DNA of 36,536 nt, from assembly GCA_001563915.1 (NCBI GenBank), contig LKMP01000008.1, positions 1-36,536 of the forward strand, in the 5' to 3' direction. This document shows, one piece after another, positions 2,075 to 32,270 of the stretch. Position 1 is the first letter of the stretch; every line of letters begins with the position of its first letter. The notes under the pieces were generated by a model. The model was given only the letters and a program-made list of their open reading frames with translations. It did not search any database and was not told the origin of the DNA. The stretch is from Nanohaloarchaea archaeon B1-Br10_U2g21 (GTDB taxonomy: Archaea > Nanohalarchaeota > Nanosalinia > Nanosalinales > Nanosalinaceae). The translations under genes and the position numbers were made by a program.

Positions 2075-5000
2075 GTGAACTGGAAGAAGGTTGTCTGTGG
2101 AGTTCTGCTCGTTTTAATGCTTTCTGGAAGTGTGTTCGCAGAATGGAGTGATGGAGATAAATCACAAAATATTTTCGAAGGCGTAGAAACCCAAGACTCC
2201 GAAAAAGTATACATAGATCCAATTTTAGAATCTGAATTCCACACTGGTATTTCTATTCAGACCAGAGAGACAGTGAAAGTTATCGTGAACTTTGGATCTT
2301 ACGAAGAGGCTGAAGATAGAGAAGATATGCAGGCAGAAGCCTCGAAATCTCAAGAACCTATTATGAATTTAGCAGATAATAATCCGGAAATAGAGGTCAA
2401 GAATCAGTTCTGGATCGCGAATGCGGTGCTTCTTGAAATAGAAAATGATTTTCCACTAGAAAAAATTGCTCAAGTAGGGGGAGTAGAAGAAATACAGGAG
2501 AATGCTGAGGTTTCAACTCTTGAAACTAATGAATTAGGTTCGCAAAGCTCTTCAGCGTCTAAAACGTATGGTCTTAACCAAATAAATACTAGTGAAGTCT
2601 GGGAAGAGTTTGATACAAAAGGAGAGGGTGTAAAAGTAGCAGTTTTAGATACAGGTATAGATTCTGGCCATCAAGATCTCGAACTTTATACAGAGGAAGA
2701 CTCTGATCCTACATACCCGGGAGGATGGGCAGAGTTTGATAATGGAGAGGTAGATGACTCTGAACCCTACGACTGTGGAACGCACGGAACTCACGTCAGC
2801 GGCACAGTAGCAGGGGGGAATGAGTCAGGAGAGAGTATAGGTGTAGCTCCTAATACTAAATTGCTTCATGCAGGTGTCTTAATGCAAGAGGAAGATGGAG
2901 AGTGTACAGGAGACCATTCAGATATTTTGGATGGCATGGAATGGGCGGTTGAAAACAATGCGGATATTATCAGTATGAGCCTTGGGGTCGAAGGTTACTG
3001 GGGGTCTGCTATAGATGCCGTTCGTGGAGCTGAAGAGGAAGGAGTATTAGTCATTGCTGCATCAGGTAATAATGGAGAAGGAACTAGCTTTGCTCCTGCT
3101 AATGTATATGAGTCATTTGCAATAGGCGCAGCAGACAGCGAAGATGATATAGCAAGTTTTTCGAGCGGAGAAAAAGTTGAAGATTCAAACTGGCAAGGCA
3201 CTCCTCCTGAAGATTGGCCGGACCAATATATTGTGCCGGATGTAGTAGCGCCTGGTGTTGGAGTGAAAAGTTCAGTGCCAAACGATAATTATGATTATTT
3301 TGAAGGAACTAGTATGGCTGCACCTCATGTATCAGGAGCTGCAGCGCTAATACAGTCTGCAACTTCTACTTATTTGGATCCTGATGAGTTAAAAGAGTCT
3401 TTTATTGAAACAGCGAGGAAACCTAGCGACTGGAATGAAGAGGATGCTGAAGATGAAATAGACGGCCAAGACACTCGCTACGGAGAAGGTGTAATTGATG
3501 CTCACAGCGCAGTAGAGTATGCTTTCGAAAACTTTGAAAAGCCGCGGTTCGAGATAAGTGAGTTAGAAATAAATCCTGAAGAAATCATTGAAGGAGACTC
3601 TGTTAATGTTACAGGCATTGTTAATAATACAGGAAGCGAAGATAAAGCAGATTTACGTCTTGAAGTTAATCAGGCTGAAGTAGCACAAAAAGACGTAAAA
3701 ACAGTTTTTGAAGACGCTGAAGAGTTTTATTTTGAGGAACAGTTTGATGAACCAGGTTCCTATAATATTTCGGTAAACGGTACGAAATCTGGAAACCTCA
3801 ACGTTTTGAAAGCACCAGAACTTGAAATAAATGAATTCAATTTATCAGAATCAGAAATACTTGAAAATGAGTCTACTCAGGCCACTTTAAACGCAGAAAA
3901 TATTGGCGAGGCGGAAGGAGTATTTAATGTAAATCTTTCTGTAGGAGGGACGGTAGTACAGAACAGCTCTTTGGTACTAGAAGAAGGGGAAAAAGATACA
4001 GTAGAATTTGAAGAAGGGTTCGACAAATGGGGGAGTTATAATATTTCGTCAAATCAGAAATATGAAACACTTCAAGTCTTAAAACCCGGCTCTATAGAAT
4101 TTTTGAACAGTTCTGTAGGGCAAAGAGAGATTGGAAAAGGAGATCAAGCCGAATTTTTCATAGAAGCAAAAAATCCGGGAAATGTTAGCGTAGAAGACAA
4201 TTTTCACTTCAAAATAAACGATAGCTTAGAGGATCAAAAAAATGTTGAAATAGAAAACAATTCTCGTGAAGAATTCAGATTTTCTAGTAAAGAGTTAGAA
4301 GAAAAAGGCAGATATGACTTATCTGTTAATGGTTCTAAATCTCAAGTAATTGACGTTTTGAAACCTGGAGAACTGCAGAATAACGAAATCTTTTTGTCTT
4401 CAGAAGAAGTTGTAGCAGGAGAGAAGGCAAACATAACTAGCACAGTAGAAAATATTGGCGAAGTAACAGATGAGTTCGATGTAGATCTTTTGTTAGATAG
4501 GAACGGAGAAAATCTTGCAAATGAGTCAAAAAAAGTAGAAGTGGATGCAGGTGAAGAAAAAAATGTTACTTTTGAAAAAGCTATTGAAGAACCCGGAAAA
4601 TATACTGCAGAATCTTTGAAGAAGTCAAAAAACTTCACAGTACTAAAAGACGCTGATCTTGGGGTAAAGCAGGCCTCAACAAATGCAAGCAAAATATTTA
4701 CAGGCCAATACCTAGAATTAGAGGCCTTAGTAGGTAATGAAGGGGAGGTAGCAGGAAAAGACGTTTTTAACTTTACTGTGGGCAATGATTCAGTTCTGAA
4801 TAAGTCTGAAGAATTGGATCCTGGAGAAAACATGACGGTATCTCAGAAGTTACAGTTAGAAGACAAAGGTAACTTCACGGCAGCAATAAATGATACTAGT
4901 GCCGGTGAAATCGAGGTTAGTAGGCCTTTTGTTAACATTACTTCTGCTGAGGCAGATTTTTCAGATTCTGGTCTGATAGAAATTGATGCATCTTTGAATA

Positions 5001-7366: not shown

Positions 7367-7768
7367 ATGGCAGTACACACATCTGGAAAGAGAAAAACAG
7401 CCAAGGCTCGTGCCACGGTAAAAGAAGGCGAAGGCACAATTAGAGTTAACTCTAAGCCTCTCAATATTCTAGAAGACAGTTTCAGGAGGAAAATTGAAGA
7501 GCCGCTAAGAATAGCGGGAGAAGAAGTATATTCTGGACTCCAAATCCACGTAGATACTAGAGGCGGAGGAACGAACGGCCAAGCAGAAGCAGCACGTATG
7601 GCTGTAGCCAGAGGATTAGTAGAGTTTGAAGATGATGAAGAACTCGAAAGAGAGTTTAGAGAATACGATAGAAACATGATGGTTGAAGACCCAAGACGTA
7701 CTGAGACACGAAAACCAAGCCAGTCGAGTAAAGGTGCTCGACACAAACAACAGAAATCTTACAGGTAG
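7367..7768 (+). CDS. rps9: 30S ribosomal protein S9
   Basis: A 133-residue S9. Family signatures are SGKRKTAKARATV at the N-terminus, GGGTNGQAEAARMAVARGL in the middle, and the basic C-terminal tail ending KSYR, which in S9 reaches toward the P-site tRNA. The final Arg expected at the C-terminus is present. It starts 2 bases after L13 and is followed by rpoN after 9 bases. Confidence 0.97.
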   Translation: MAVHTSGKRKTAKARATVKEGEGTIRVNSKPLNILEDSFRRKIEEPLRIAGEEVYSGLQIHVDTRGGGTNGQAEAARMAVARGLVEFEDDEELEREFREYDRNMMVEDPRRTETRKPSQSSKGARHKQQKSYR

Positions 7769-7777
7769 GTATAAAAT

Positions 7778-7975
7778 ATGCAGTTTCCTGTTAGATGCTT
7801 CAGCTGTGGAAAGGTTATTGGAGATAATTGGGATGAGTTCCAAGAGCGTGTTGAAGAAGGAGAAGATAAAGGAGAAGTACTTGATGACTTAGGAGTCAAA
7901 AAGTATTGCTGCCGTACAATCTTCTTGACTCACGTTGAATCAATTGAGGAAATAGGAGAATACGAACTAACCTAA
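7778..7975 (+). CDS. rpoN: DNA-directed RNA polymerase subunit N
   Basis: A 65-residue subunit homologous to eukaryotic Rpb10. The zinc site is complete: CFSCGK near the N-terminus (Cys7 and Cys10) and the Cys-Cys pair in YCCRTIFLTHV. The length is typical. It is the last gene of the ribosomal operon, as in many archaea. A T-rich stretch follows the stop, and the next gene converges from the other strand. Confidence 0.97.
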   Translation: MQFPVRCFSCGKVIGDNWDEFQERVEEGEDKGEVLDDLGVKKYCCRTIFLTHVESIEEIGEYELT

Positions 7976-11319: not shown

Positions 11320-12405
11320 ATGAAACAAGTTCTGATTCTGCTGTTTTTTTTAACTGCTATGATTGGAGGCGGTCAGGCTTCTGAATATTCGGAATCGTTT
11401 AAAGTTCATTTAGGAGAAGAGGTTGAGCTTGAGGGATATGATTTTCGATATAACGATAGAACAGGTGAAAATGTTTTCACAGTTCTAGCTAGGTCTAATG
11501 GCAGCTTAGTTATACAGGATCAGGTAAGAGGTGATGATATATTCTCAGAAATGGGAGAGGTTAGAGAGATTGATGACGAAACTCATTATGAAATAGTTGA
11601 TATTGATGCTGACGACGAAGGCTTGTATTTAGATATGCAGGTTAATGCATCCGAACCAATATTTGATTCTGCAGATATAACTACGGATGATCCTTCAAAC
11701 GTCTTTGTGGCTCAAGGCGATGAGATGGAGATAACTCTAGACTTAGAAAACACTGGTGTTGTAGACCAATCCTTTGAATTGGATGCAGAAACCCATGAAG
11801 CAATAGATACTTTTTTTGTATTTGACGAGTTCGAAGTATCGGAAATCGAAGTTCCAAGAGGAGAGACTCAGCAGATAACTTTGGAAATAGAGCTATCTGA
11901 AGATGTGCCTACCGGTCCTCAAGAGATGAATATTACTGCTGAAGGTAACACTCAAGCCTCAGAAACGTTCAGTTTTGAAGTCAGAGGTCAGCAGTTGCAA
12001 GAACCATATTTGAATATGGATATTTCCGAGAGTTTCATTAGATTAAATCCTGGAGAAGAAGAAAATATTCCTATCGTATTCCGGAACGAGGGACAAGTTC
12101 CTGTGGAAGATATTGGTCTTGAGGCCGAATCTGACGGGCTGGATATTGATATTCCCGAGACTGAGATGACTCTCGAACAGTTTGATAGAGAGGAGTTAGT
12201 TGTACAAGTTTCAGCTCCTGAAGATATGGAGCCAGGAGACTATTTTGTGGAATTTGAGGCGGGGGCAGAGAATGTTGATGAGCAGTCTGAAGAAATGCGA
12301 GTAAATATTACTGAAGAAACAGTTCTAAGATATGTGGGGCTGGCAATAATGATTGGCAGTTTAGGGGCGTTGATAGCTGTTTACAGGAGATTTGGGAGGA
12401 GATAA
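11320..12405 (+). CDS. exported NEW3/CARDB-like domain protein, membrane-anchored
   Basis: A 361-residue protein with signal peptide (1-20), an N-terminal beta domain (about 25-125), two NEW3/CARDB-like beta-sandwich repeats (about 130-222 and 230-330; compare LDLENTGVVDQSF with IVFRNEGQVPVED), and a C-terminal helix (about 337-355) followed by RRFGRR, so it is anchored with the bulk outside. It is the first gene of an operon with an ABC ATPase and an ABC-2 permease (gap of 3 bases). Similar COG1361-type exported proteins occur beside ABC-2 exporters in archaea and may be their extracellular partner. No enzyme motif is visible. Confidence 0.82.
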   Translation: MKQVLILLFFLTAMIGGGQASEYSESFKVHLGEEVELEGYDFRYNDRTGENVFTVLARSNGSLVIQDQVRGDDIFSEMGEVREIDDETHYEIVDIDADDEGLYLDMQVNASEPIFDSADITTDDPSNVFVAQGDEMEITLDLENTGVVDQSFELDAETHEAIDTFFVFDEFEVSEIEVPRGETQQITLEIELSEDVPTGPQEMNITAEGNTQASETFSFEVRGQQLQEPYLNMDISESFIRLNPGEEENIPIVFRNEGQVPVEDIGLEAESDGLDIDIPETEMTLEQFDREELVVQVSAPEDMEPGDYFVEFEAGAENVDEQSEEMRVNITEETVLRYVGLAIMIGSLGALIAVYRRFGRR

Positions 12406-12408
12406 AAG

Positions 12409-13287
12409 GTGGTTCTTGAACTTGAGGCTGTACACAAGAGTTACGGCAATCATAGAGTTCTTAAAGGAGTAAATTTGGAGGTGTCTGAAGGCGAAATATA
12501 TGGGCTATTAGGTCCTAACGGTGCCGGTAAAACAACGCTTTTCCAGACAGTTATAGGTATGCTAAGACACGACTCAGGAACGATAAAGGTCGATGGAAAA
12601 CTAAATACGGAGGGAAAAGAAATTAAAGCCGAGATAGGTTATTTGCCTTCTGATATAAACTTCTATGAAAGCATGAACTCTATAGAAAACCTTCAATTTT
12701 TTGCTGATTTAGCAGAAACAAATCCTGATATACATAGTCTTCTGAAATTAGTAGGTTTGGAGGATGACAAACATAGGAAGGTTGGAGAGTATTCTACAGG
12801 AATGAAAAAACGGTTAGGAGTAGCTCAGGCGTTAGTAAAGGATCCTAAAATCGCTATTTTTGATGAACCGACTACAGGTCTTGATCCTGAAGGCAAGAAT
12901 AAGTTTCGACATCATGTTGAAAAAATAAATGAGGAAAAGAACATGACTATAATAATCTCGTCGCACGTGACTACGGAAATATCTTCTTTGTGCGATAGAT
13001 TCGGTATACTCTTTGAAGGCGTTATAAAGTCTTCAGGGACTAAAGAGGAGCTTTCAGGCAAAGTAGATTCGGATAATAGGAGCAGTGTGACAGTGGGTAG
13101 TCCCAGCAAGGCTGAAGAGATATTTAAGAAGAATGACATTGAGTACTCTAGGACTGGCAGAAAATTTCTGTTAGAAGCTGAGGATGAGCAAGCACTTTTA
13201 ACCAAGCTGAGCAAAGAGGCCAAAATCAAGAGCTTTGAGTCGGAAGAAGCCTCTCTTGAGGCTGCTTATCTCGAATTAACGAAGTGA
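12409..13287 (+). CDS. ABC transporter ATP-binding protein
   Basis: A 292-residue ATPase of the ABC-2/DRI exporter class (NosF- and CcmA-like). Walker A GPNGAGKTT (about 35-43), signature EYSTGMKKRLG, Walker B IAIFDEPTTGLDPEG and the H-loop histidine (SSHVTTE) are all present. The last about 75 residues are the small C-terminal domain common in this class. The start is GTG at 12409, with GGAGGAG about 10 bases upstream, inside the end of the preceding gene. It powers the permease encoded 6 bases downstream. Confidence 0.95.
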   Translation: MVLELEAVHKSYGNHRVLKGVNLEVSEGEIYGLLGPNGAGKTTLFQTVIGMLRHDSGTIKVDGKLNTEGKEIKAEIGYLPSDINFYESMNSIENLQFFADLAETNPDIHSLLKLVGLEDDKHRKVGEYSTGMKKRLGVAQALVKDPKIAIFDEPTTGLDPEGKNKFRHHVEKINEEKNMTIIISSHVTTEISSLCDRFGILFEGVIKSSGTKEELSGKVDSDNRSSVTVGSPSKAEEIFKKNDIEYSRTGRKFLLEAEDEQALLTKLSKEAKIKSFESEEASLEAAYLELTK

Positions 13288-13293
13288 TTTTAT

Positions 13294-14304
13294 ATGGGAG
13301 ATATGTGGGATATTGCTGCAAAGCAGATGAGAGACAGTTTTTCTAAGAAGAGGTTTATGCTGGTTGTAGGCCTATTTTTTGTGTTAACTCTTGGTTCAGT
13401 TTATCTGGGTATAGATGCATATCAGACGGATATGGATAATTATTTAGATCCCGGAACAATCCATGCGGATGAACCGTCTTTTATGCAGATTTATGAGCCA
13501 TTGGTTGGATTTAGTATGGCTATGGTAGCAGGAATCTTAGGTTTGATAATTAGTTATAATTCAATTTCACGGGAACGCAGAGATGGAACGATAGAGATAC
13601 TGCTTTCTTACCCTATATATAGAGATGAGATAATAAACGGCAAAATTGTTGCTAATATCTTTATTGTGGCTTTTTCACTTCTTCTAGCATTTTTAGCTAC
13701 TTCAGGCCTGGCTATGTATTTGTTAGACGCTGTTCCAACTATGGAAGAAGTTTCAAGAATTGCTTTCCTATGGATAGGGACAACTATATACATAACCTTC
13801 TTTATAGGTCTTGGAACTCTTTTATCAACTGTTTTTAGGTCTCAATGGCGATCACTAGCCACAGGAAGTCTTTTGCTCCTATTATTCATAGGGATGCCAT
13901 TTATTGCAGGCATAGCAGCAAATTATATTTATGAAATGCCAGAGCCTGAGTATCAGCCGCAGCCGATGCATAGAGAAGTTACTGAAGAAACAGAAGTAGG
14001 AGAAGTTCAACTGGAAAATCCGGAACCAGACAATAATGATCAAGAGGATACAGAGCAGAGAAGAGAAGAGATAAGAGCTAAAAGAGAAAGATTTGTCCGT
14101 ACCTCGGAGCGTCTATCTCCTGCTACTACTTACAACCAATATACAGGCAATATGCTAGGAACAAGATTCGAGTCCGGTGAAAATGTAAGACCTACCTTCG
14201 AAGAAAGTCTTTCTGCATCAATAGATGCGTTAATTTATCTTCTAAGCCATGTTGCGATGGTCTTTACAGCAGCCTATGCAGTGTTCCTTAGACAAGATCT
14301 CTAG
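13294..14304 (+). CDS. ABC-2 type transporter permease
   Basis: A 336-residue integral membrane protein with about six helices: one near 20-40, four between about 70 and 205, and a last one near 310-330. The motif SRERRDGTIEILLSYP after the second helix is typical of NosY/ABC-2 permeases. Between the last two helices lies a hydrophilic, very acidic loop (about 208-285), unusually long and probably external. It pairs with the ATPase upstream. The substrate is not visible. It ends in a CTAG shared with the stop of the convergent gene at 14301. Confidence 0.9.
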   Translation: MGDMWDIAAKQMRDSFSKKRFMLVVGLFFVLTLGSVYLGIDAYQTDMDNYLDPGTIHADEPSFMQIYEPLVGFSMAMVAGILGLIISYNSISRERRDGTIEILLSYPIYRDEIINGKIVANIFIVAFSLLLAFLATSGLAMYLLDAVPTMEEVSRIAFLWIGTTIYITFFIGLGTLLSTVFRSQWRSLATGSLLLLLFIGMPFIAGIAANYIYEMPEPEYQPQPMHREVTEETEVGEVQLENPEPDNNDQEDTEQRREEIRAKRERFVRTSERLSPATTYNQYTGNMLGTRFESGENVRPTFEESLSASIDALIYLLSHVAMVFTAAYAVFLRQDL

Positions 14305-14702: not shown

Positions 14703-15404
14703 CTAATCGCCTATATAGTCGCCATTAACTCTTCTAAAATCGGGTTGCTCCATTTCTTCTCTGACATGTGCTACTAATCCAGGAGTCCTAGCGATAATAA
14801 AAAACCCTTTACCAAGTTCTGGTTCAAAACTGAGATCGCTCATTATTCCTGCTATTGCGCCATCAACGTTTAACACTAGTCTAGTTTTTTCCTCTCCAAA
14901 AATTCTATGAATTTTCAGCATCTTTTCAGTGTATTTTCCTTTTAAATTCAGTTTCTCTGCAGTCTCTAGCATTTTCATACTTCTAGGATCTTCTTTTTCA
15001 TAGACTTTATGCCCTAAGCCCGGTATTTTTTCTCCAGCCTCTAACTTTTTTTCTACTATTTTCTCTGCCGAGGTCTCTGATTGGAGTAAGTCCATACATT
15101 CTTCGATTGCTCCGCCGTGTTTATCTCCTAGAGCCATTATACCTGCAGCTACTGAAGTGTTCATAGAATTTCCTCCGCTTTGTACTGTTCGAGAAGCAAC
15201 TGTTGAAGGATTTCCTATCCCATGATCGATACAGCTTGATAGAATTGTGTTAAATATCTCTGATTCTCTTTCTGTAGGCTTTTCGCCTTTCAGGATCAGA
15301 AATATTGCATCGCTAAATGGCATATCCATTACTGTCTCTAAATCTATGCCTCTAACTTTTGAGTTATCGCCGGAAGAAGATATTTCGGTTTCCCAGTTTG
15401 CCAT
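14703..15404 (-). CDS. citrate synthase-like citryl-CoA lyase (C-terminal domain of ATP-citrate lyase)
   Basis: A 233-residue protein of the citrate synthase superfamily, far shorter than true citrate synthase (about 370-430), and matching the short citryl-CoA lyase branch and the lyase domain of ATP-citrate lyase. Landmarks: SSCIDHGIGNPSTVASRTV (His of the DHG motif), MALGDKHGGAIEE, IPGLGHKVYEKEDPRS (GxGH motif) and NVDGAIAGIMSD (active-site Asp region). Expected reaction: citryl-CoA to acetyl-CoA plus oxaloacetate. It is the last gene of the operon running from 18476, 24 bases after the preceding gene. A small stand-alone citrate synthase-like enzyme is the alternative. Confidence 0.85.
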   Translation of the reverse strand: MANWETEISSSGDNSKVRGIDLETVMDMPFSDAIFLILKGEKPTERESEIFNTILSSCIDHGIGNPSTVASRTVQSGGNSMNTSVAAGIMALGDKHGGAIEECMDLLQSETSAEKIVEKKLEAGEKIPGLGHKVYEKEDPRSMKMLETAEKLNLKGKYTEKMLKIHRIFGEEKTRLVLNVDGAIAGIMSDLSFEPELGKGFFIIARTPGLVAHVREEMEQPDFRRVNGDYIGD

Positions 15405-15428
15405 GATAATAATTTTTCTAGAGAATAG

Positions 15429-15836
15429 TTAATTCTTTGGATTTTGTTTACTTTGATAATACTTTTCGGTTCTTTCCTCTAACTTAGGGAAAATATCAGA
15501 AGCTATAGAATCAGCATAGGAATCAGGAGAGCTTATATTGTTATCAACATTCAGAAATTTTCTCACAAGACCATTAAGCGAAAATTCTACGCCATAATCA
15601 ATTCTCCAGCTTGACTGTGTTGCATCTTCTTCAGAGTACGCCATCCCTGAGTAAATAGTGTACGTGATACTATCTTCGCCTACTTCTTTCACGAGCTCAC
15701 GGCTCTCGTCATTATTAGCATGGTCTATGACGGCCATAGGGTTCAGAGCGTATCGATTATTCCCCTCGACATTGACTGGTAATTCATACATCTGCCAATC
15801 ATCCGTAGATTTTGAATTCTGTTCCGTGGTACTCAC
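15429..15836 (-). CDS. hypothetical protein in the citrate lyase operon
   Basis: A 135-residue acidic soluble protein. Its start overlaps the stop of the SucD-like gene by 4 bases, and it sits between that gene and the lyase-like gene, so it is surely co-expressed with them. It is rich in Asn, Ser and Asp, with a central WRIDYGVEFSLNGLVRKFL segment. No domain recognised. It may be an assembly or regulatory factor for the split enzyme, which is inference from position only. Confidence 0.7.
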   Translation of the reverse strand: MSTTEQNSKSTDDWQMYELPVNVEGNNRYALNPMAVIDHANNDESRELVKEVGEDSITYTIYSGMAYSEEDATQSSWRIDYGVEFSLNGLVRKFLNVDNNISSPDSYADSIASDIFPKLEERTEKYYQSKQNPKN

Positions 15837-16720
15837 AGTATCTCCTCAAGCACATCACTTATTTCATGATGCACATCTACCACATGAGCTCCTGAATCTT
15901 TTAGAACCTTTTTTTTGTAGCTAGGGCTTTCTTCATTTTCTCTTATAATTGCTCCAGCATGACCATATTGTTGAGAGGGCAGAGATTCAGTAAACTCTCC
16001 TGCAATAAAGGCAACAACAGGTTTAGAGAACTCTTCCTCAATATATCTTGCGGCCTCTAACTCATATCGTCCGCCAAGCTCTCCAAACATTACGACTGCG
16101 TCAGTTTGACTATCTTTTTCAAACAATTTTAGACAGTCTTTAAAGTTCGTACTTGCTATACGATCGCCTCCAAGACCCAAAGCAGTTGAAATACCTAAAC
16201 CGGACTGCCCTAATACATGAGCAGTCTCTGTTGTCATGCCGCCGCTCTTAGACATTAAGCCAATGTGGCCTTGCTGATAAACTTTTTCAGTATCTTTGCC
16301 TCCTATAGGCCCGAGCTTTGATTTGCCTGGAGAGATTATACCAACTGACGTAGGCCCTACCACTCTAGCACCAGTGTTCTGGGCTTTCCTGTAAATTTGC
16401 CACGCATCCTTTACTGGCACGCGTTCAGTAACAATATTCAGAAGAGGTATTCCGGATTCTAAAGCTTCAAAAGCTGCATCCTTCGCCGCAAAGTGAGGCA
16501 CATATACTAAAGAAGCGTTTATATCAGGATAGTCTTCTAGAGCTTCTTCAACGGTATCATATACAGGCACACCTTCTACATTTTCACCGCCTTTTCCCGG
16601 AGTAACTCCTGCAAGTATTTCAGTTCCGTAATCAAGCATTTCAGGAACTTTTTCTGAAGCCTCTCGACCCGTTATTCCTTGCACAAGCACTTTTGTATTC
16701 TTATCTATTAGTATGCTCAT
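15833..16720 (-). CDS. SucD-like subunit, ATP-citrate lyase/citryl-CoA synthetase type
   Basis: A 295-residue CoA-binding/ligase protein. The N-terminal Rossmann CoA domain has VQGITGREASEKV. The phosphohistidine loop is QYGHAGAII (His254). Two spots separate ATP-citrate lyase from succinyl-CoA synthetase as I recall the families: SKSGGM (158-162; SucD usually SRSGTL) and LGGDR (183-187; SucD usually GGDP). This protein has the citrate lyase form at both, and GPTSVGIISPG also resembles ACLY. It would form citryl-CoA together with the subunit at 17343-18476. It overlaps both neighbours by 4 bases. Confidence 0.88.
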   Translation of the reverse strand: MSILIDKNTKVLVQGITGREASEKVPEMLDYGTEILAGVTPGKGGENVEGVPVYDTVEEALEDYPDINASLVYVPHFAAKDAAFEALESGIPLLNIVTERVPVKDAWQIYRKAQNTGARVVGPTSVGIISPGKSKLGPIGGKDTEKVYQQGHIGLMSKSGGMTTETAHVLGQSGLGISTALGLGGDRIASTNFKDCLKLFEKDSQTDAVVMFGELGGRYELEAARYIEEEFSKPVVAFIAGEFTESLPSQQYGHAGAIIRENEESPSYKKKVLKDSGAHVVDVHHEISDVLEEIL

Positions 16721-17346
16721 TTTAACACTCTTAGTACTGCTTTAACATCATTGTAGCTGACTTTTTTGATTTTAAGACCGCTATAATGAGTACCAAATAC
16801 ACAGTACTGAGTTACCCAGACAAAGCTCATCTCAGTTTTTTCAGCGGCAAGATCTCTGTCCACATTATTTCCAAAATATGCAAATCTTTCTCGCTCTTCA
16901 TCCCTTTGGCTTAGAAAAGCCTCGAATATTTCTTCATTAGGCTTCTTAACCCCGACTTCTTCCGAGACCACTAGGCCTTTGTAATCTAATTCAGCATCCG
17001 AGAACACTTTAGTATAGAATTTTTTGGCCTCAATTGAGTTGTCGCTGATAAATCCTATTGGCCCAAATTCAGAATCTATCTTTTTTAGCTCTGGAATTAT
17101 TTCTTCTTTCAAAAATTTTTCTGCCCAAATCTCATATTTTTCCTTAATTATTGAAGGATTAGCGTGAAGCCCTTCTGAATCTAGCCATCTTGCCACTTCT
17201 TCAGTCTTAAAAACATTGAAACTATTAATCGGCATTTTTACAGGAGTTTGGCCGTTTCTTTCTAGCTCTTTTGAAACAAATTCGTTTATTTTGCTGTTAT
17301 CAGGGATTAAAGTGTCTCCTATGTCAAATACAGGGATTTTATTCAT
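16717..17346 (-). CDS. HAD superfamily phosphatase-like hydrolase
   Basis: A 209-residue HAD protein. Motif I is FDIGDTL (Asp8 nucleophile, Asp11 acid/base), motif II is the serine in FISDNS, motif III is the lysine in VKKPNEEIF, and motif IV is the aspartates in FGNNVDRDL. A helical cap of about 90 residues sits between motifs I and II (type C1). Substrates are probably small phosphorylated metabolites. Striking context: it lies between the two citrate/CoA ligase subunit genes, overlapping each by 4 bases, so it is made in step with them. A metabolite-repair role or regulation of the phosphohistidine enzyme is conceivable but unproven. Confidence 0.88.
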   Translation of the reverse strand: MNKIPVFDIGDTLIPDNSKINEFVSKELERNGQTPVKMPINSFNVFKTEEVARWLDSEGLHANPSIIKEKYEIWAEKFLKEEIIPELKKIDSEFGPIGFISDNSIEAKKFYTKVFSDAELDYKGLVVSEEVGVKKPNEEIFEAFLSQRDEERERFAYFGNNVDRDLAAEKTEMSFVWVTQYCVFGTHYSGLKIKKVSYNDVKAVLRVLK

Positions 17347-18476
17347 AGACTATCCTCACTCTTTATCATGTCCATTAATTTCTTTGATGATTCTGTCATC
17401 GGTAAGTCGTTCCGATAAAGATTCATGTTTAAATCTAGTTTTTCCCGAGTTTTTTCTAATAGTTCAAATGCTTTTTCAGCGTTAGGCCCATCTCTACGAA
17501 TTACTATTGGATATTCGGGCTCCTCTTCTTCTAGTGCTTGACAAAATCCTCTCATTGTCCTGTAAATATCAGTATTATTAGCTGTTCCTCCCACATGTAG
17601 TAATCCTTTGAGATTTGGTTTTGACATTATGACTTTACTAAGCCGGTAAACTTTTTCTGTCGGAGGATTTCCACCATACTCGGTATAATTTGCAGGTTTC
17701 CCTCCATAAGCTATCAGAGAATCCATATTTGTAAGTGAGGCGCCTCCACCAGCAAGCATCATGCCTATATCGCCCTCTAGCTCAACGTATTTGCCAGCTA
17801 CACCTCTGTGATCCTCTTCATCTATTTTTTCGGCCTCTATTTCTCTTTCAGTTTTCTCCCTTTTGAAAGCAGTTCTTTTAGGATAGCTCCAATTATGGCG
17901 GAAGGATGCGTCATTATCGAGCTCCATTTTAGCGTCGACGGCTATTAAATCCTTTTTAGAATCCAAAACTAAAGGGTTCACTTCTAGCATCATTGCGTCC
18001 TCTTCAAGAAACACGTTGAAAATTAGGTGTGTGATTATACTTAACCTGTCTGAAATATCATCTGAGAGCTCTGCGCTTCTTAGCTTCTCCGTAAACTCTT
18101 TTTTGCTGCCTTTCTCTATTTTAAATTTCGTTATTTCTCTGTTTTCTACGCCTGATCCTCCATCAGCTGAAAATAAAAACACTGGTCCTCGTGTAGAGGT
18201 ATCATAGACAAAAGAAATGTAGTATTCATGTTCTATATCCACTTTTTCTTCTATAAGTACGGACTCTACTTTTCTACCGGCTAGTTTGCCGTTTTTCATA
18301 TCTTCAGCAATTCTTTCTGCTTTTTTCCGACTTTCTGCAAATTTTATTCCTCCTTTAGATTTTCGATTCTTTTCAAGTATCTGTGCTTTCACAACGAAGG
18401 ATTCGCCGTCTTTTGAAGGAGTGGGGATGTCATGTTTCTCTAAGATTTTCTTTGTCTCGTGTTCTAATAGCTCCAC
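17343..18476 (-). CDS. SucC-like ATP-grasp subunit, ATP-citrate lyase beta type
   Basis: A 377-residue protein: an ATP-grasp domain (about 1-220; VVKAQ, KGGIKFAES, EVNPLVLDSKKDLIAVDAK) and a C-terminal CoA-ligase flavodoxin-like domain. The second half matches the ATP-citrate lyase form rather than SucC: MLAGGGASLTNMDS, PANYTEYGGNPPTEKVY, VGGTANNTDIYRT and IRRDGPNAEKAFEL follow the ACLY blocks AGGGAS, ANY.EY.G.P, GG..AN.T and RRxGPN (recalled family pattern). It should phosphorylate the SucD-like partner's histidine using ATP and bind citrate. The start is GTG at 18476, 27 bases after a TATA box. It is the first of five overlapping genes. Confidence 0.88.
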   Translation of the reverse strand: MELLEHETKKILEKHDIPTPSKDGESFVVKAQILEKNRKSKGGIKFAESRKKAERIAEDMKNGKLAGRKVESVLIEEKVDIEHEYYISFVYDTSTRGPVFLFSADGGSGVENREITKFKIEKGSKKEFTEKLRSAELSDDISDRLSIITHLIFNVFLEEDAMMLEVNPLVLDSKKDLIAVDAKMELDNDASFRHNWSYPKRTAFKREKTEREIEAEKIDEEDHRGVAGKYVELEGDIGMMLAGGGASLTNMDSLIAYGGKPANYTEYGGNPPTEKVYRLSKVIMSKPNLKGLLHVGGTANNTDIYRTMRGFCQALEEEEPEYPIVIRRDGPNAEKAFELLEKTREKLDLNMNLYRNDLPMTESSKKLMDMIKSEDSL

Positions 18477-20033: not shown

Positions 20034-20507
20034 TTAAGCATTTGCTATTAGATAACCAAGGAAAAATAAAGAAATCCAGCCTATTACAGACACGACTGCA
20101 GCAAGACCTGCAACTTTTTCAAACGTTTTTACTTTTTCTGTTCTATTCTCCCACTCTGGTGCGAGTTCTTGGAATTTGGGAGTCACCCAGATATTAAGAA
20201 ATACTCCGTTAAGGAATACTATTACCACTATAAACATTTTAACTTGGAAAGATCTTTCTAGGGCCAAGTTAGGATGCATTAGAAACATTAAGAGGCCTGT
20301 AATCGAGAGTATAAGGAAACCTACCCAGATAATGAGAGAGAATATAGGAGCCATCATCGCATTGTACTTGGCATTACTTGGTTTAAGATGCATGTAACCA
20401 TTTACAGCATCAGTCATCAGTACTGCCCCAATAGCAGTTATAGCTCCGAATACGTGAAGCATATGGAGTGTAAAATGAGGATCCAATACTGGCGATAAAT
20501 CAATCAC
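20034..20507 (-). CDS. four-helix membrane protein, possible heme/copper-handling (CopD/DUF2269-like)
   Basis: A 157-residue membrane protein with four hydrophobic helices (about 12-34, 50-72, 86-108, 130-153). Histidines sit at or in the first helix (HFTLHMLHVFGAI), at the end of helix 1 (GYMHLKP) and after helix 2 (FLMHPN), a layout seen in small cytochrome b-like and CopD/DUF2269-like proteins. Its ATG overlaps the stop of the 80-residue membrane gene by 4 bases. The pair is transcribed divergently from the CuA/multicopper oxidase, so an electron-transfer or copper role is plausible but inferred. Confidence 0.75.
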   Translation of the reverse strand: MIDLSPVLDPHFTLHMLHVFGAITAIGAVLMTDAVNGYMHLKPSNAKYNAMMAPIFSLIIWVGFLILSITGLLMFLMHPNLALERSFQVKMFIVVIVFLNGVFLNIWVTPKFQELAPEWENRTEKVKTFEKVAGLAAVVSVIGWISLFFLGYLIANA

Positions 20508-20802: not shown

Positions 20803-22137
20803 ATGGATAGAGAGTTCATTATCCCTTCAATATTTGTAGCAGCGCTAACTTTGATGCTGTTTTCTGGCCTTACTTATCTGGGATATGAACATATTACTGA
20901 GGCCTCTGTTGAAGGCGAGCCAGATGTAGTCATTGATATGTTAGCAGACGATTGGTACTTTGAGCCCGATAAAATTACTGTTAGTGAAGGAGACCATGTT
21001 AGACTTGTAATCGAGACAGAACACTCTGAAACAGGTACTTATGATCACGGTATCCACATACCTAGTTTAGGAGTAAACGAGCCTCTTGCAGCTGGAGAGA
21101 CACATGAAGTAGAGTTTATAGCTGATGAAGCCGGAGAACATCAGTTTTACTGTAATGTATACTGCGGAGAAGGACATCATAATATGGAGGGAGAAATTAT
21201 AGTAGAAGAAAACAGTCATGAGGATCATGGCGACGGAACTGAATCTGATTACGAAGATTACGATTTACCTGTTCGAGGTTCAGAAGATGCTATTGAGGAA
21301 TTATCTTATGAAACAGATAGTGAGGGTGTGAAGGTCTTTAATCTAACAGCAGAACACGTAATGTGGGACTACGGAGAAGATCATCTTGGACAGTCTCACG
21401 TGGTCGAATCATGGGGGTATAACGGTCAGCTTCCCGGCCCTGAAATCAGAGTAACCGAAGGAGATGAAGTAAGAATTAATTTTGAAAATAAGGCTCCCAT
21501 CAATACTACAGTTCACTGGCATGGTGTAGACGTTCCAATTGAGGCAGATGGCGTGCCGGGGATAACACAGGAACCAGTAGGAGAAGACGAAACCTTCACC
21601 TACGAATTTACAGCAGAACCTTCAGGAACACGATTCTATCATACTCATGGATCCGATCATACTGATGAGGCAGAACAAATGGATATGGGGCTAGCAGGCC
21701 CTCTGATCATAGAGCCTGAAGAGTTTGAAGAACCTGATGTAGACTACACAATGGTGCTATCTGAAAGAATAGGGGAAGGAATATATCCGATTCAGGGACA
21801 GATATATCCTAACGTGCCTGCTATAGAAGTTGAAGAAGGAGACTTGGTCAGAGTAAGAATGATAAATGCAGGTTCTACAACTTTCCATCCAATGCATCTA
21901 CACGGTCATCAGTTTGACGTTATAGCAAAGGATGGTAACCCTGTGCCTGAAGAAGCAGTACAGGAACGAAATGTCAAAACAGTTCATCCAGGAGAAACTA
22001 TGGATATAGAGTTTGTAGCAGATAATCCGGGAAAATGGATGTTCCACTGCCACGAATTATCTCATGCTGGAGGAGGTATGATCGCAGAAGTAGTCTATGA
22101 TGGCTATGAGGAAGATCATTCAGCTGAGCATCACTAA
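20803..22137 (+). CDS. CuA cupredoxin domain fused to two-domain multicopper oxidase
   Basis: A 444-residue exported copper protein. N-terminal membrane anchor (about 5-27). A first cupredoxin domain (about 40-137) carries a cytochrome oxidase subunit II-like CuA site: His82/His85 region, then CNVYCGEGHHNM (Cys117, Cys121, His125, Met128). After a His/Asp-rich linker come two cupredoxin domains with all four laccase-type motifs: HWHG (238-241), HTH (280-282), HPMHLHGH (362-369) and HCHELSHAGGGM (415-426, T1 Cys416). That implies one type 1 copper and a trinuclear oxygen-reducing centre. The ATG at 20803 is preferred over upstream starts because of the TATA spacing and the immediate membrane helix. 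The electron source is unknown; the CuA domain would be the entry port. Confidence 0.92.
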   Translation: MDREFIIPSIFVAALTLMLFSGLTYLGYEHITEASVEGEPDVVIDMLADDWYFEPDKITVSEGDHVRLVIETEHSETGTYDHGIHIPSLGVNEPLAAGETHEVEFIADEAGEHQFYCNVYCGEGHHNMEGEIIVEENSHEDHGDGTESDYEDYDLPVRGSEDAIEELSYETDSEGVKVFNLTAEHVMWDYGEDHLGQSHVVESWGYNGQLPGPEIRVTEGDEVRINFENKAPINTTVHWHGVDVPIEADGVPGITQEPVGEDETFTYEFTAEPSGTRFYHTHGSDHTDEAEQMDMGLAGPLIIEPEEFEEPDVDYTMVLSERIGEGIYPIQGQIYPNVPAIEVEEGDLVRVRMINAGSTTFHPMHLHGHQFDVIAKDGNPVPEEAVQERNVKTVHPGETMDIEFVADNPGKWMFHCHELSHAGGGMIAEVVYDGYEEDHSAEHH

Positions 22138-25054: not shown

Positions 25055-26356
25055 TTAGCATTCTTCACCCCAGTTCGGCTGTTTATCATCCTCGCCTTCA
25101 AAACCAGCTCCGCTGTCAAAATCAGAAGGTTTTTCTTCAATCTGCTCAACACACCAATCACTGATATCCTGATCAAAACTGCTTGCACCACGAAACATTC
25201 GCCACATAGACTCCACATTTGAGGTGTCCCAGTCGCTGATATCCTGATCAAAACTGCTTGCACCATCGAACATTCTCTGCATATTTGTAACACTTTCAGT
25301 TTCCCAGTCGCTGATATCCTGATCAAAATTACTGGCATCAGTAAACATTCGCCTCATAGTTGTTACTTCTGACGTGTCCCAATCCTCCATTCCCTCTCCT
25401 CTAAAATCAGTTCTTTCAAACATATCGGACATGCTATTCACGCTGCTAGTGTCCCATCCGCTTACATCGCCATCGAAACTAGATGCATCCTCAAATGCAT
25501 CGCTAAAAGAAGAAACTTCAGAAGTGTCAGGTATGTCCGAGTAGTTGTCTTCCATATTTTCCGCATCATCAAAAGCGCCATTAAAGCTTTGGTATTTTAT
25601 ATCTCCCCATTGTTCTATGGTTTTGACTTTTAGTTCGTCTCCTTCTCTTAGTCTTGGGTGGGGGTATAATCCTCTGATTCTTATTTCGTGGAGTCCTGGT
25701 TCTTTGAATTCGATTATGTGGTTGTTGGTTAGTGGGTCTATTATTTCTTCATTTCCTTCTCCGTCTAGGTTTTCCCATTCTAATTGGTATTCGAAGTTGC
25801 CGCCGCCCGTGCCTAGTTCGAATTCGTTGTCTTCTGTTTCTCCTTCTTTTGTGGAGTTTACTTGGAAAATTAGTGGTTCCATATCAAAAAATTCGGAACC
25901 TTCAATGATTTCGAAGTTTCCGGAAATTGTGCCGGTGTTTTCTAAGTTTTCTAGGTTGCCTTGATTATAGTTTAGTGTGATGTCTAAATTGTTTGCTGAG
26001 TTTCCGTCTTCTATTTGTAGGAATGTGGCTGTATTAGTGTCGGTTACGTCTAGTGTTGCTTGTTCTCCGCTTGGTTGCCATATTGCTTCTTTTTGTCCGT
26101 CTGTTACTTTTACTTTGTTCAGTTCTATTGTTTCTGCACCACCATTCCTTAGCACTAGCTGTAGTTGGTCTTCAACGTTCAAACCTACGTCATCTACTAG
26201 CACACTGTCTCCGTCGAATCCTGAAGCGCTTTGCGGGCTTTCACTCTGGGTTATAGAGAAAATGGCTCCTCCTACTACTGCTACTACGAGGAGCATCCAA
26301 CCATATGTCATTAGGTATTCGATGGCTGATTGGCCTTTGAGTCTTTCTACTTTCAC
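25055..26356 (-). CDS. pilin-like surface protein fused to BspA-like (DUF285) repeats
   Basis: A 433-residue exported protein. The N-terminus LKGQSAIEYLMTYGWMLLVV is a class III pilin signal (cleavage after Gly8). The next about 120 residues are paralogous to the pilin at 10538. A beta-rich middle part (about 165-260) leads to about six 25-residue BspA-like repeats (about 270-420) of the form MFDGASSFDQDISDWDTS, and then a Cys-containing tail. DUF285 repeats occur mainly in bacterial, protist and viral surface proteins and are linked to adhesion. Their union with an archaeal pilin stem suggests a filament-tip or surface adhesin. The start is GTG at 26356, with a TATA box at 26380-26390. Confidence 0.88.
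   Translation of the reverse strand: MKVERLKGQSAIEYLMTYGWMLLVVAVVGGAIFSITQSESPQSASGFDGDSVLVDDVGLNVEDQLQLVLRNGGAETIELNKVKVTDGQKEAIWQPSGEQATLDVTDTNTATFLQIEDGNSANNLDITLNYNQGNLENLENTGTISGNFEIIEGSEFFDMEPLIFQVNSTKEGETEDNEFELGTGGGNFEYQLEWENLDGEGNEEIIDPLTNNHIIEFKEPGLHEIRIRGLYPHPRLREGDELKVKTIEQWGDIKYQSFNGAFDDAENMEDNYSDIPDTSEVSSFSDAFEDASSFDGDVSGWDTSSVNSMSDMFERTDFRGEGMEDWDTSEVTTMRRMFTDASNFDQDISDWETESVTNMQRMFDGASSFDQDISDWDTSNVESMWRMFRGASSFDQDISDWCVEQIEEKPSDFDSGAGFEGEDDKQPNWGEEC
25161..25385 (-). repeat. 75-bp tandem coding repeats (25 residues each)
   Basis: The string ctgatatcctgatcaaaa recurs at 25161, 25236 and 25311, exactly 75 bases apart, with only small changes. More diverged units continue to about 25530. 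Near-identity in the last three units suggests recent duplication or gene conversion within the adhesin repeats. Confidence 0.9.
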
Positions 26357-30388: not shown

Positions 30389-31144
30389 CTAACGCCTGTA
30401 TTTCCGGAATATATAATCTATTACGCGGCTAGGCAGAAATTTTTCTGCTTTGGAAAGAAATTTAGCTTCAGAAGTGATAGTATAGCGAGGCTTTTTGCCA
30501 TATAAAATTATTTTAGCAAGCTGCTTTCCTGCTTTTTCAGGGGATAAACCCTTCACATCTTCATTTAGTTTTTCTTCATAGAGATCTAAATACTTAGAGT
30601 TATCATATTTTGTTAAATTGGATCTACCATTCTCATTAAAGCCTGTTTTAACTCTCCCTGGCTCAACTAGAACCACATCTACATCTTTCAATTCTCTGCG
30701 CAAAGAATCAGTGAAACCTTCTACAGCATATTTGGATGCGCAATATCCGCTTAGAAAAGGCAAGCCTATTCGGCCAGCAATTGAGGAAACATTCACGATT
30801 TTTCCCTTACTTTTCCTTAGTTCTGGAAGACAGGCATGGACAACGTTTATTGTGCCTATGTAATTATGGTATATGTGTTCTTCAAAATCCTCTATTCTCA
30901 TGTCTTCAACAGAACCTTGTTTCTGTACTCCTGCGCAGTTCACAACTATATCTGTTTCAAAGTCTTCAAGTTGTTCAAAAACTTTTTGACGATTTGTGAT
31001 GTCTAGAACATGTTTTTCAACGCCTTTAAGCTGATCAAGGGCGTTAGAATCTCTATCAACTACAGAGACTTTGTTATTCTTTTTCAGCCACTTTACTGCC
31101 TTGAGGCCTATTCCATTCGCTCCTCCAATAACAAGTATTTTCAT
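30389..31144 (-). CDS. short-chain dehydrogenase/reductase
   Basis: A 251-residue SDR oxidoreductase. The cofactor motif GGANGIG is at 7-13, Asp30 at the end of strand 2 suggests NAD(H) preference, NCAG is at 69-72, catalytic Ser121 and YCASK (Tyr134, Lys138) follow, and EPGRVKTGF is the usual post-catalytic loop. The C-terminal about 60 residues resemble those of SDRs acting on hydrophobic substrates (SDR family 'DltE/YqjQ-like'), but the substrate is unknown. Its ATG overlaps the VKOR stop by one base (TAATG), so both come from one transcript. Confidence 0.93.
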   Translation of the reverse strand: MKILVIGGANGIGLKAVKWLKKNNKVSVVDRDSNALDQLKGVEKHVLDITNRQKVFEQLEDFETDIVVNCAGVQKQGSVEDMRIEDFEEHIYHNYIGTINVVHACLPELRKSKGKIVNVSSIAGRIGLPFLSGYCASKYAVEGFTDSLRRELKDVDVVLVEPGRVKTGFNENGRSNLTKYDNSKYLDLYEEKLNEDVKGLSPEKAGKQLAKIILYGKKPRYTITSEAKFLSKAEKFLPSRVIDYIFRKYRR

Positions 31145-32184
31145 TAGTGTAGAGGGCTCCAGTTAGGGATGCTGTCTTTGGCTCTAAGATCATATATTTT
31201 TTCTATTGCTAGTCCTGATAGGCTTGCCACTACTAAAAGTGCTGCATAGGTAGTTAGGAAGTAAGATGGCGGAGCTATAATTTCTACAGTCTTCAAGATG
31301 AATAGTGCGATCCAGGAGACTATTGAAATACTTGCCATAACGAATGCGGCTTTTCTGTAAACTCTATTCTGTCTGCTTTTAGGCTCTTCGCTGTTTCTAG
31401 AGAATTTTATGCCGATTATTTCCTGTGAAACTTTTAGATTGTAAACCGATCCGTTAATCAGTATAATTCCGATTATTGTTAGAAGAGTTAGGCTTTCTCC
31501 CGGGTGGAAGTGTCCTGCTAGATATAATCCTAGGCTTGTTAGAACTACTCCTCCTAGTGCGGCCCATGTCAAGTTGTTTAAAGTGTCTAATACGCTGGCT
31601 TGACGCTCTAGCATTTCAAAGTCTCTTAAGAAGTTGAGAAACAGGAAATCATAGGAAAGTGCTGTTCCTAGGCCTGCTGCAGCAACTAATACTCCTATTA
31701 TGCTTATGGCCAGTCCATATTGGGCCATTAAAGCACCTATACCTACAGCAGAAGCAGGAATTGCAAGAATCATTATCAGGGCGCATAGACTTGCAGATAC
31801 TAGACACCAAGTGCACCACATTTTCAAGGTAAATCCTTGAATAAATGTCAGATAAGCTGAAAATAACACTGCTAATGCGCTTGAAGCAATAACGCCGAGT
31901 ACAAACCAAGAAGGTAGTGTCTGCGCTGTTAATAGATAAATGGAGTAGCTTACAATTACCACGGCATAATACAATAATCCTAGTACTTCAACATCCAGAC
32001 CTAAAAATTTGGAATATTTACTTGTGATGACGTCTTCACAACTTCCGTCCATCGGACATGCCATGCCCTCTACATTAGTTTTCTTTTGGTAATGCAGGTA
32101 GGTGGATACTCCAAGTCCTGCGATTCCGATTAAAATTATCAAAGCTTGGAAAACTGGTTGCGAAAGTGTTGAAAAAAGTTCCAT
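31144..32184 (-). CDS. VKOR family thiol oxidoreductase with extra membrane domain
   Basis: A 346-residue membrane protein. The first about 145 residues form the four-helix VKOR bundle with the loop cysteine pair ACPMDGSC (Cys43 and Cys49 from the ATG used here) and the quinone-side CTWC (Cys124, Cys127). Such enzymes reoxidise a thioredoxin-like partner and drive disulfide formation outside the membrane. About 200 further residues add five or more helices with no thioredoxin domain, not a fusion I recognise. The ATG at 32184 (MELFSTLSQ) is preferred over 32202 because the TATA tract at about 32206-32218 is then 28 bases upstream. Cotranscribed with the SDR. Confidence 0.88.
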   Translation of the reverse strand: MELFSTLSQPVFQALIILIGIAGLGVSTYLHYQKKTNVEGMACPMDGSCEDVITSKYSKFLGLDVEVLGLLYYAVVIVSYSIYLLTAQTLPSWFVLGVIASSALAVLFSAYLTFIQGFTLKMWCTWCLVSASLCALIMILAIPASAVGIGALMAQYGLAISIIGVLVAAAGLGTALSYDFLFLNFLRDFEMLERQASVLDTLNNLTWAALGGVVLTSLGLYLAGHFHPGESLTLLTIIGIILINGSVYNLKVSQEIIGIKFSRNSEEPKSRQNRVYRKAAFVMASISIVSWIALFILKTVEIIAPPSYFLTTYAALLVVASLSGLAIEKIYDLRAKDSIPNWSPLH

Positions 32185-32270
32185 ATCAAGTAATAGATAC
32201 ATCTTACTTAAATAAAATTCTGGTTTGAGATGGATTGTACTTTTAATCTTCTGGATTTTAGATGTGTACT

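Follow-up and report, generated by a model that had tools for sequence, protein, structure and literature searches.

A membrane-anchored protein joining a CuA domain to a two-domain multicopper oxidase in nanohaloarchaea, spirochaetes, and a Kaiserbacteria genome

Electrons are known to enter heme-copper oxidases and N2O reductase through CuA; multicopper oxidases (MCOs) are known for drawing theirs from small substrates. A gene of the nanohaloarchaeon B1-Br10_U2g21 combines the two. It lies on a contig of 36,536 nt, here called the window, and encodes a single chain in which motifs and modeling predict an intact CuA site along with an intact type-B two-domain multicopper oxidase (2dMCO), T1 copper and trinuclear center included. 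Sequence comparisons indicate that archaea and bacteria alike have kept the two modules together. We favor, with a probability of roughly 0.58, the reading that the protein is a membrane-anchored, extracytoplasmic, homotrimeric copper oxidase in which electrons would run from a donor to CuA, on to T1 and the trinuclear center, and finally to O2. The fusion probably reduces O2 to water in cells that mostly lack a known respiratory terminal oxidase.

Domains and copper ligands of the fusion protein

The start codon chosen for the window gene, the ATG at 20803, agrees with the start of the homolog in locus L001, and the encoded protein matches the Pfam families Cu-oxidase_3 (3.7e-40), Cu-oxidase_2 (7.2e-35), and Cupredoxin_1 (4.6e-17). 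The sequence-only reading of this stretch had noticed a COX2-type CuA motif together with four laccase copper motifs in one membrane-anchored 444-residue protein. Both observations are confirmed, the former by alignment of the ligands, matches to Thermus and N2O reductase (N2OR) CuA domains, and a model of the domain, and the latter by the reading frame, the Pfam matches, and the conservation of the ligands in 20 of 20 proteins.

Table 1. Features of the fusion gene and its divergent neighbors in the window
Feature	Coordinates	Strand	Remarks
CuA-2dMCO fusion gene	20803..22137	+	444 aa
N-terminal transmembrane anchor	20815..20871	+	most hydrophobic 19-mer is residues 5-23; model helix 3-29
CuA cupredoxin domain	20914..21213	+	residues 38-137
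CuA ligand His82	21046..21048	+	invariant 20/20; context YDHGIHIP, upstream of the CuA loop
CuA loop CNVYCGEGHHNM	21151..21186	+	residues 117-128; Cys117, Cys121, His125 invariant; Met128 is Gln in spirochaetes and CPR
Linker	21214..21330	+	DLPVRG..DAI..L.Y motif, largely common to archaeal and bacterial members
MCO domain 1	21331..21717	+	T2/T3 ligands H238/H240 (21514-21522) and H280/H282 (21640-21648); edges approximate
MCO domain 2	21718..22110	+	T1 ligands H362, C416, H421, M426; edges approximate
CopD-like multi-TM protein, divergent	20034..20507	-	CopD 23.6 bits, under the Pfam cut-off of 32.1
Small protein, 80 aa	20504..20746	-	signal-like N-terminus, HD motif, C-terminal TM; L001 counterpart 7712-7921 (-)

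The first domain carries the CuA ligand set of the COX2/NosZ type, His ... C-x3-C-x3-H-x2-M, within a cupredoxin fold. With this amino acid composition, CxxxCxxxHxxM would arise by chance with a probability of ~4e-5. Exactly three cysteines are present, each on a copper-ligand position: residues 117 and 121 are CuA ligands, and residue 416, the sole cysteine of the MCO part, is the T1 ligand in domain 2. The MCO motifs are HWH (238-240), HTH (280-282), HPMHLHGH (362-369), and HCHELSHAGGGM (415-426), matching the type-B series HxH, HxH, HxxHxH, HCHx3Hx4M. Domain 2 also bears the trinuclear ligands H365, H367, H415, and H417, so that T1 and trinuclear positions fall together at 21886-21909 and 22045-22080.

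Type-B 2dMCOs are defined by having T1 ligands in domain 2 only, and they form homotrimers with the trinuclear center at the subunit interface (PMC13151041). The window protein belongs to type B because its T1 ligands are confined to domain 2. Since the trinuclear site of a 2dMCO forms between the subunits of a trimer, a single chain would not be a complete enzyme, and by analogy with the class the functional enzyme should be a trimer, carrying three CuA sites. The “complete multicopper oxidase” of the sequence-only reading thus stands as regards its four motifs, but not as a self-sufficient chain.

In an alignment of 20 homologs, the copper ligands of both modules are identical with the exception of the CuA axial position 128, where the three archaeal proteins have Met and the remaining 17 have Gln; L057, a partial spirochaete sequence, has Arg there. 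The remaining four CuA side-chain ligands show no variation among the members compared. The spirochaete and CPR proteins therefore offer a natural set of Met-to-Gln CuA sites.

The closest PDB match of the CuA domain is the CuA domain of Thermus ba3 oxidase (E 2.7e-11), followed by N2O reductase. Identity to the Thermus domain is 31%, and His82, Cys117, Cys121, His125, and Met128 all align with ligands of its CuA site. An AlphaFold2 model of the domain built from seven related sequences reached a pLDDT of 86.8, and its top Foldseek matches are Thermus CuA constructs and the N2OR CuA (TMq 0.80-0.82). Structure prediction, which the sequence-only reading had proposed as a check, thus bears out the fold of this domain, but the ligand loop within it has a pLDDT of only 58 and the full-length model is poor (pLDDT 62), too weak for judging copper geometry. 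Over its whole length the protein is best matched in fold by the Hyphomicrobium nitrite reductase HdNiR (PDB 2dv6/6tfo). Profiles for oxidase subunit II score it under their cut-offs (COX2, 17.8 against 22 bits; CoxB, 44.3 against 147.7), as does Cu_nitrite_red (52.4 of 296.3 bits); the member in L003 scores 31.9 bits with COX2.

Distribution and history of the fusion

The same architecture was found in 23 genomes: three Nanohaloarchaeota (the window's and those of L001 and L002), one Kaiserbacteria, and 19 spirochaetes. The latter are among 46 genomes of the spirochaete order of L003 (Spirochaetaceae/Spirochaetales bins), with 16 full-length genes and three at contig ends; the count fell from 20 to 19 on leaving out G070, whose match spans MCO residues only. 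The fusion was not found elsewhere among 393 Spirochaetota genomes drawn evenly, and among 380 genomes of the CPR phylum it occurs in the Kaiserbacteria genome alone. Viral contigs and plasmids yielded no such fusion, just CuA-less 2dMCOs or stand-alone CuA domains (coxB, nosZ).

The MCO parts of the fusion proteins form one clade in a phylogenetic tree (support 100/99). A second tree recovers this clade (96/93) with a CuA-less, membrane-anchored CPR 2dMCO as its sister. This sister protein (L075:734-1966, minus strand, genome G291) has Tyr in place of the first trinuclear His of HWHG (TTIYWHG). A linker motif, LPVR..DAI..LPY, occurs in most archaeal and bacterial members, which suggests one fusion event. 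The best-fitting history is a single event, after which the gene spread laterally among microbes of hypersaline sites and soda lakes, and several of the fusion records are brine or sediment isolates. The bacterial carriers are uncultured and come from soda lakes.

A chimeric assembly or misread frame was rejected as a source of the fusion because separately assembled genomes from three phyla show the same architecture. Contamination of the nanohaloarchaeal contig is unlikely, given the gene order common to the window and L001 (cobalamin adenosyltransferase, CopD-like gene, fusion, lipoate ligase). The GC3 of the fusion gene, which is in line with that of neighboring genes, and the strongly acidic composition of the protein (22% D+E, 3.6% K+R) also argue against it.

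A stand-alone, membrane-anchored CuA protein is encoded in another nanohaloarchaeal family (genome G027; L084:7573-8043, plus strand, equivalent to L010:1453-1923). It is 67% identical to the window CuA domain and clusters with the nanohaloarchaeal fusion CuA domains (92/88), and no MCO gene lies within the 16 kb examined around it. This protein could be either a remnant of the fusion or a donor protein.

Genomic neighborhoods and candidate electron routes

The spirochaete loci couple the fusion to copper-site assembly. PCuAC and SCO are assembly factors for the CuA of oxidases. For SCO, this function in oxidases is documented (PMC13344008). Fourteen of the 16 full-length spirochaete members carry a C-terminally fused SCO1/SenC domain (E 7.6e-46), with CxxxC in all 14. 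A PCuAC gene (E 2e-32) lies directly downstream in 13 of the 13 loci that have downstream sequence, mostly at less than 40 bp or overlapping, often by 3 bp. The two members without SCO (L005, L062) have no adjacent PCuAC gene either, and a family search found no SCO match anywhere in their genomes.

Ten of the 16 spirochaete loci also hold a divergent MsrQ-like, ferric-reductase-like membrane gene (PF01794; 46.6 bits for the L005 neighbor) within ~130 bp of the fusion. These neighbors carry H-x13-H and H-x12-H pairs, a two-heme pattern. The other six loci have no such neighbor, and some of their contigs end nearby. PF01794 is present in 18 of the 19 fusion genomes and in 14 of the 27 without the fusion (Fisher p 0.003, kinship ignored). 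PF01794 proteins that lack an NAD domain are MsrQ-like, hold two hemes, and are homologous to a quinone-binding subunit (PMC8238504). Judging from these arrangements, the adjacent MsrQ-like bis-heme-b membrane protein is the most likely electron donor in spirochaetes.

Other genes recur in these neighborhoods. In locus L003, a gene pair ~4 kb from the fusion (2227-3647, plus strand) encodes a DOMON-domain protein and then a second MsrQ-like bis-heme-b membrane protein; it may perhaps be a second extracytoplasmic electron route. Mrp/Mnh-type cation antiporter clusters lie near the fusion in six loci (L062, L063, L064, L065, L066, and L067). Four loci without the MsrQ-like neighbor (L068, L069, L070, and L071) have genes for MsrA-type methionine sulfoxide reductases upstream of the fusion.

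The nanohaloarchaeal setting is different in content. The CopD-like gene also adjoins the fusion in L001, its counterpart in L006 is weak (19% identity), and no CopD-like gene lies beside the fusion in L002. CopD domains aid oxidase copper loading by copper import in Bacillus (PMC13344008), and because of this precedent a fair guess is that the CopD-like neighbor would more likely supply copper than donate electrons. A donor role is not claimed for this protein, whose archaeal and CPR versions are just 19% similar. Family searches of the genome of the window protein (92% complete) gave no match to SCO, Ferric_reduct, COX1, bd, or UbiA, so that neither a donor nor a route through quinone can be seen in this organism. 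Genomes G000, G003, and G015 had no Ferric_reduct, SCO, COX1, or bd match, and G000 and G015 had none for UbiA. One speculation is that electrons for the nanohaloarchaeal fusion might come from a donor in the host haloarchaeon.

Elsewhere in the window, a three-part ATP-citrate-lyase-like set (14703-18476, minus strand) comprises a citrate-synthase-type lyase domain, a succinyl-CoA-ligase-like alpha subunit, and an ATP-grasp/citrate-binding subunit. It is unexpected in a reduced nanohaloarchaeal genome and recurs in L001 (2195-6320). A secreted-looking protein with DUF285 (BspA-like) repeats (25055-26356, minus strand; E 1.7e-46) is possibly a surface protein for host contact. A NEW3-like membrane protein, an ABC ATPase, and an ABC-2 permease stand in a row as a NosFY-like export set (11320-14304, plus strand). 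A VKOR-family membrane protein with an extra TM region (31144-32202, minus strand) is a possible source of extracytoplasmic disulfide chemistry.

Family searches of the carriers, most of which are draft genomes, found COX1 (PF00115) absent from 21 of 23 and cytochrome bd absent from all 23, with positive controls found in both cases. The genomes without COX1 are the archaeal and CPR carriers (G000, G003, G015, and G065) and 17 of the 19 spirochaete carriers. Most carriers thus do not encode the COX1 partner that a heme-copper oxidase subunit II would have in the same genome. COX1 is missing about as often in non-carriers of the spirochaete order (25 of 27), and therefore the fusion is not a specific replacement for a lost COX1. 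A point against the proposed O2-reducing role is that spirochaetes often use soluble NADH oxidases for O2.

Proposed role, alternatives, and relation to known systems

In the proposed mechanism, a donor in the membrane or outside the cytoplasm would deliver electrons singly to CuA, from which they would move to the T1 copper and then to the trinuclear center at the subunit interface, where O2 would be converted to water. In spirochaetes, quinol or a cytosolic reductase would be the source of reducing equivalents, which the MsrQ-like protein would move outward across the membrane. In largely fermentative halophiles, such an enzyme would serve to remove O2 and dispose of electrons, a respiration-like function with no proton pump in the fusion protein. 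CuA sites lie near +250 mV. Transfer from CuA to T1 would be reasonable in direction because the T1 potential measured for one type-B enzyme is higher, at 537 mV (PMC13151041). In HdNiR, the N-terminally tethered copper lies ~24 Å from the core T1, and its role in electron transfer is debated (PMC7201279). The existence of a fusion is therefore no proof of electron transfer, and it is from the combined evidence that we infer electron flow through CuA and a respiratory role.

The “one-protein terminal oxidase-like device without heme” imagined in the sequence-only reading has accordingly been revised. Its oxidase-like character gains strong indirect support from SCO, PCuAC, the MsrQ-like gene, and the absence of heme-copper and bd oxidases from most carriers. 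However, the class predicts a homotrimer, and the likely spirochaete donor carries heme.

Several other functions were weighed against this O2 reductase. The MCO core might oxidize extracellular Cu(I) for copper resistance, with the CuA-type domain acting as a copper-sensing, storage, or Cu(I)-delivery module. This would suit the plain 2dMCO relatives of the core found in copper-resistance cassettes, where DUF4396 is often fused to them or encoded beside them, as well as the CopD-like gene divergent from the fusion in the window and L001. The copper_res_A profile is likewise the best NCBIfam match of the window protein, yet far under its cut-off (144.7 of 478.95 bits; CueO, 121.5 of a curated 525). 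We consider such a function unlikely: the copper-cassette 2dMCOs occupy a separate, distant tree branch, the spirochaete loci have the CuA-assembly factors SCO and PCuAC and no efflux pumps, P-type ATPases, or DUF411, and no Met-rich CueO-like insert was seen by eye in the alignment. CopD proteins, too, can aid oxidase metallation through copper import (PMC13344008). DUF4396 membrane domains fused to 2dMCOs were observed in L027:2692-4593, L029:5260-7206, L030:4008-5900, and L032:4023-5891, within copper-resistance islands on plasmids and one IMG/VR contig.

An ordinary laccase-type phenol oxidase bearing a structural or vestigial CuA domain is improbable. Type-B 2dMCOs characterized to date do act on phenols, but the type-B T1 opens to a central tunnel and the characterized enzyme is a slow phenol oxidase (PMC13151041). 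A vestigial site would moreover decay, whereas archaea, spirochaetes, and CPR all have the CuA Cys pair and His pair without variation, and SCO and PCuAC are retained. Slightly less probable still is that the first domain binds a single copper in the manner of red or green cupredoxins such as nitrosocyanin. In its favor, the domain is matched by a nitrosocyanin model (E 9e-14), and most members have Gln in place of the axial Met, but nitrosocyanin has one copper-binding Cys, and here both bridging-position cysteines and both histidines are kept in 20 of 20 proteins. The best solved relatives of the domain are CuA domains, and CuA chaperones are attached to the fusion.

For the favored O2 reductase, a more ambitious and distinctly tentative version can be drawn. 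The enzyme could be a cupredoxin-only respiratory terminal oxidase, fed from quinol or NAD(P)H through the MsrQ-like heme-b protein to CuA and multicopper O2 reduction, that substitutes for heme-copper and bd oxidases in halo-alkaliphilic spirochaetes and was laterally transferred to nanohaloarchaea and CPR bacteria. A conserved fusion whose CuA chaperones are joined to it or encoded alongside points to the evolution of an enzyme that reduces O2 without heme at its active site and draws electrons through an inlet of the respiratory kind. How some halophiles cope with O2 while lacking known terminal oxidases would thereby gain a testable explanation, and the protein would be a fuel-cell cathode candidate with a built-in electron port.

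As the sequence-only reading had supposed, no published description of a CuA-MCO fusion was found in openly licensed full texts, which leaves room for an unseen description elsewhere, and a survey of bacterial laccases includes none (PMC3192119). Parts of the design have clear relatives. HdNiR, which works as a trimer, likewise has a cupredoxin attached N-terminally to its core of two cupredoxin domains, and the window protein shares this plan of an extra redox domain on such a core. However, HdNiR places a mononuclear T1 in the extra domain and has a T2 nitrite site, whereas the fusion protein has CuA, the full ligand set of a trinuclear O2-type site, a TM anchor, and often SCO/PCuAC. Type-B 2dMCOs such as SLAC and CjMCO are built on the same core as the fusion protein, with T1 placed in domain 2 and the trinuclear ligands at the interface, but no CuA domain or membrane anchor is described for them (PMC13151041, PMC3192119); other 2dMCOs related in the core are 2zwn, 3g5w, and 3gdc. 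The CuA domains of Thermus ba3 oxidase (2cua) and N2O reductase share the ligand set and fold. In contrast to these enzymes, the fusion has no subunit I and no CuZ, its catalytic partner is an MCO, and its axial Met is often Gln.

More distant parallels also exist. An MCO of Nitrosopumilus maritimus (PDB 9cck) has a 2dMCO core and an extra cupredoxin domain, although that domain is C-terminal and, by the entry title, a cupredoxin rather than CuA. The DUF4396-linked 2dMCOs of copper-resistance islands also tie the core to a membrane domain, but lack CuA, form a separate branch, and are surrounded by copper efflux genes. PmoD provides a CuA site outside oxidases and N2OR with associated pCuAC genes, but its CuA is built between the two subunits of a homodimer from another ligand set, and it has no oxidase domain (PMC6189053). 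Both modules are thus already known, as is the design principle, in which a donor domain is tethered to a core of two cupredoxin domains; what is new is the CuA inlet, the CuA-MCO pairing, the fused SCO, and a plausible respiratory role.
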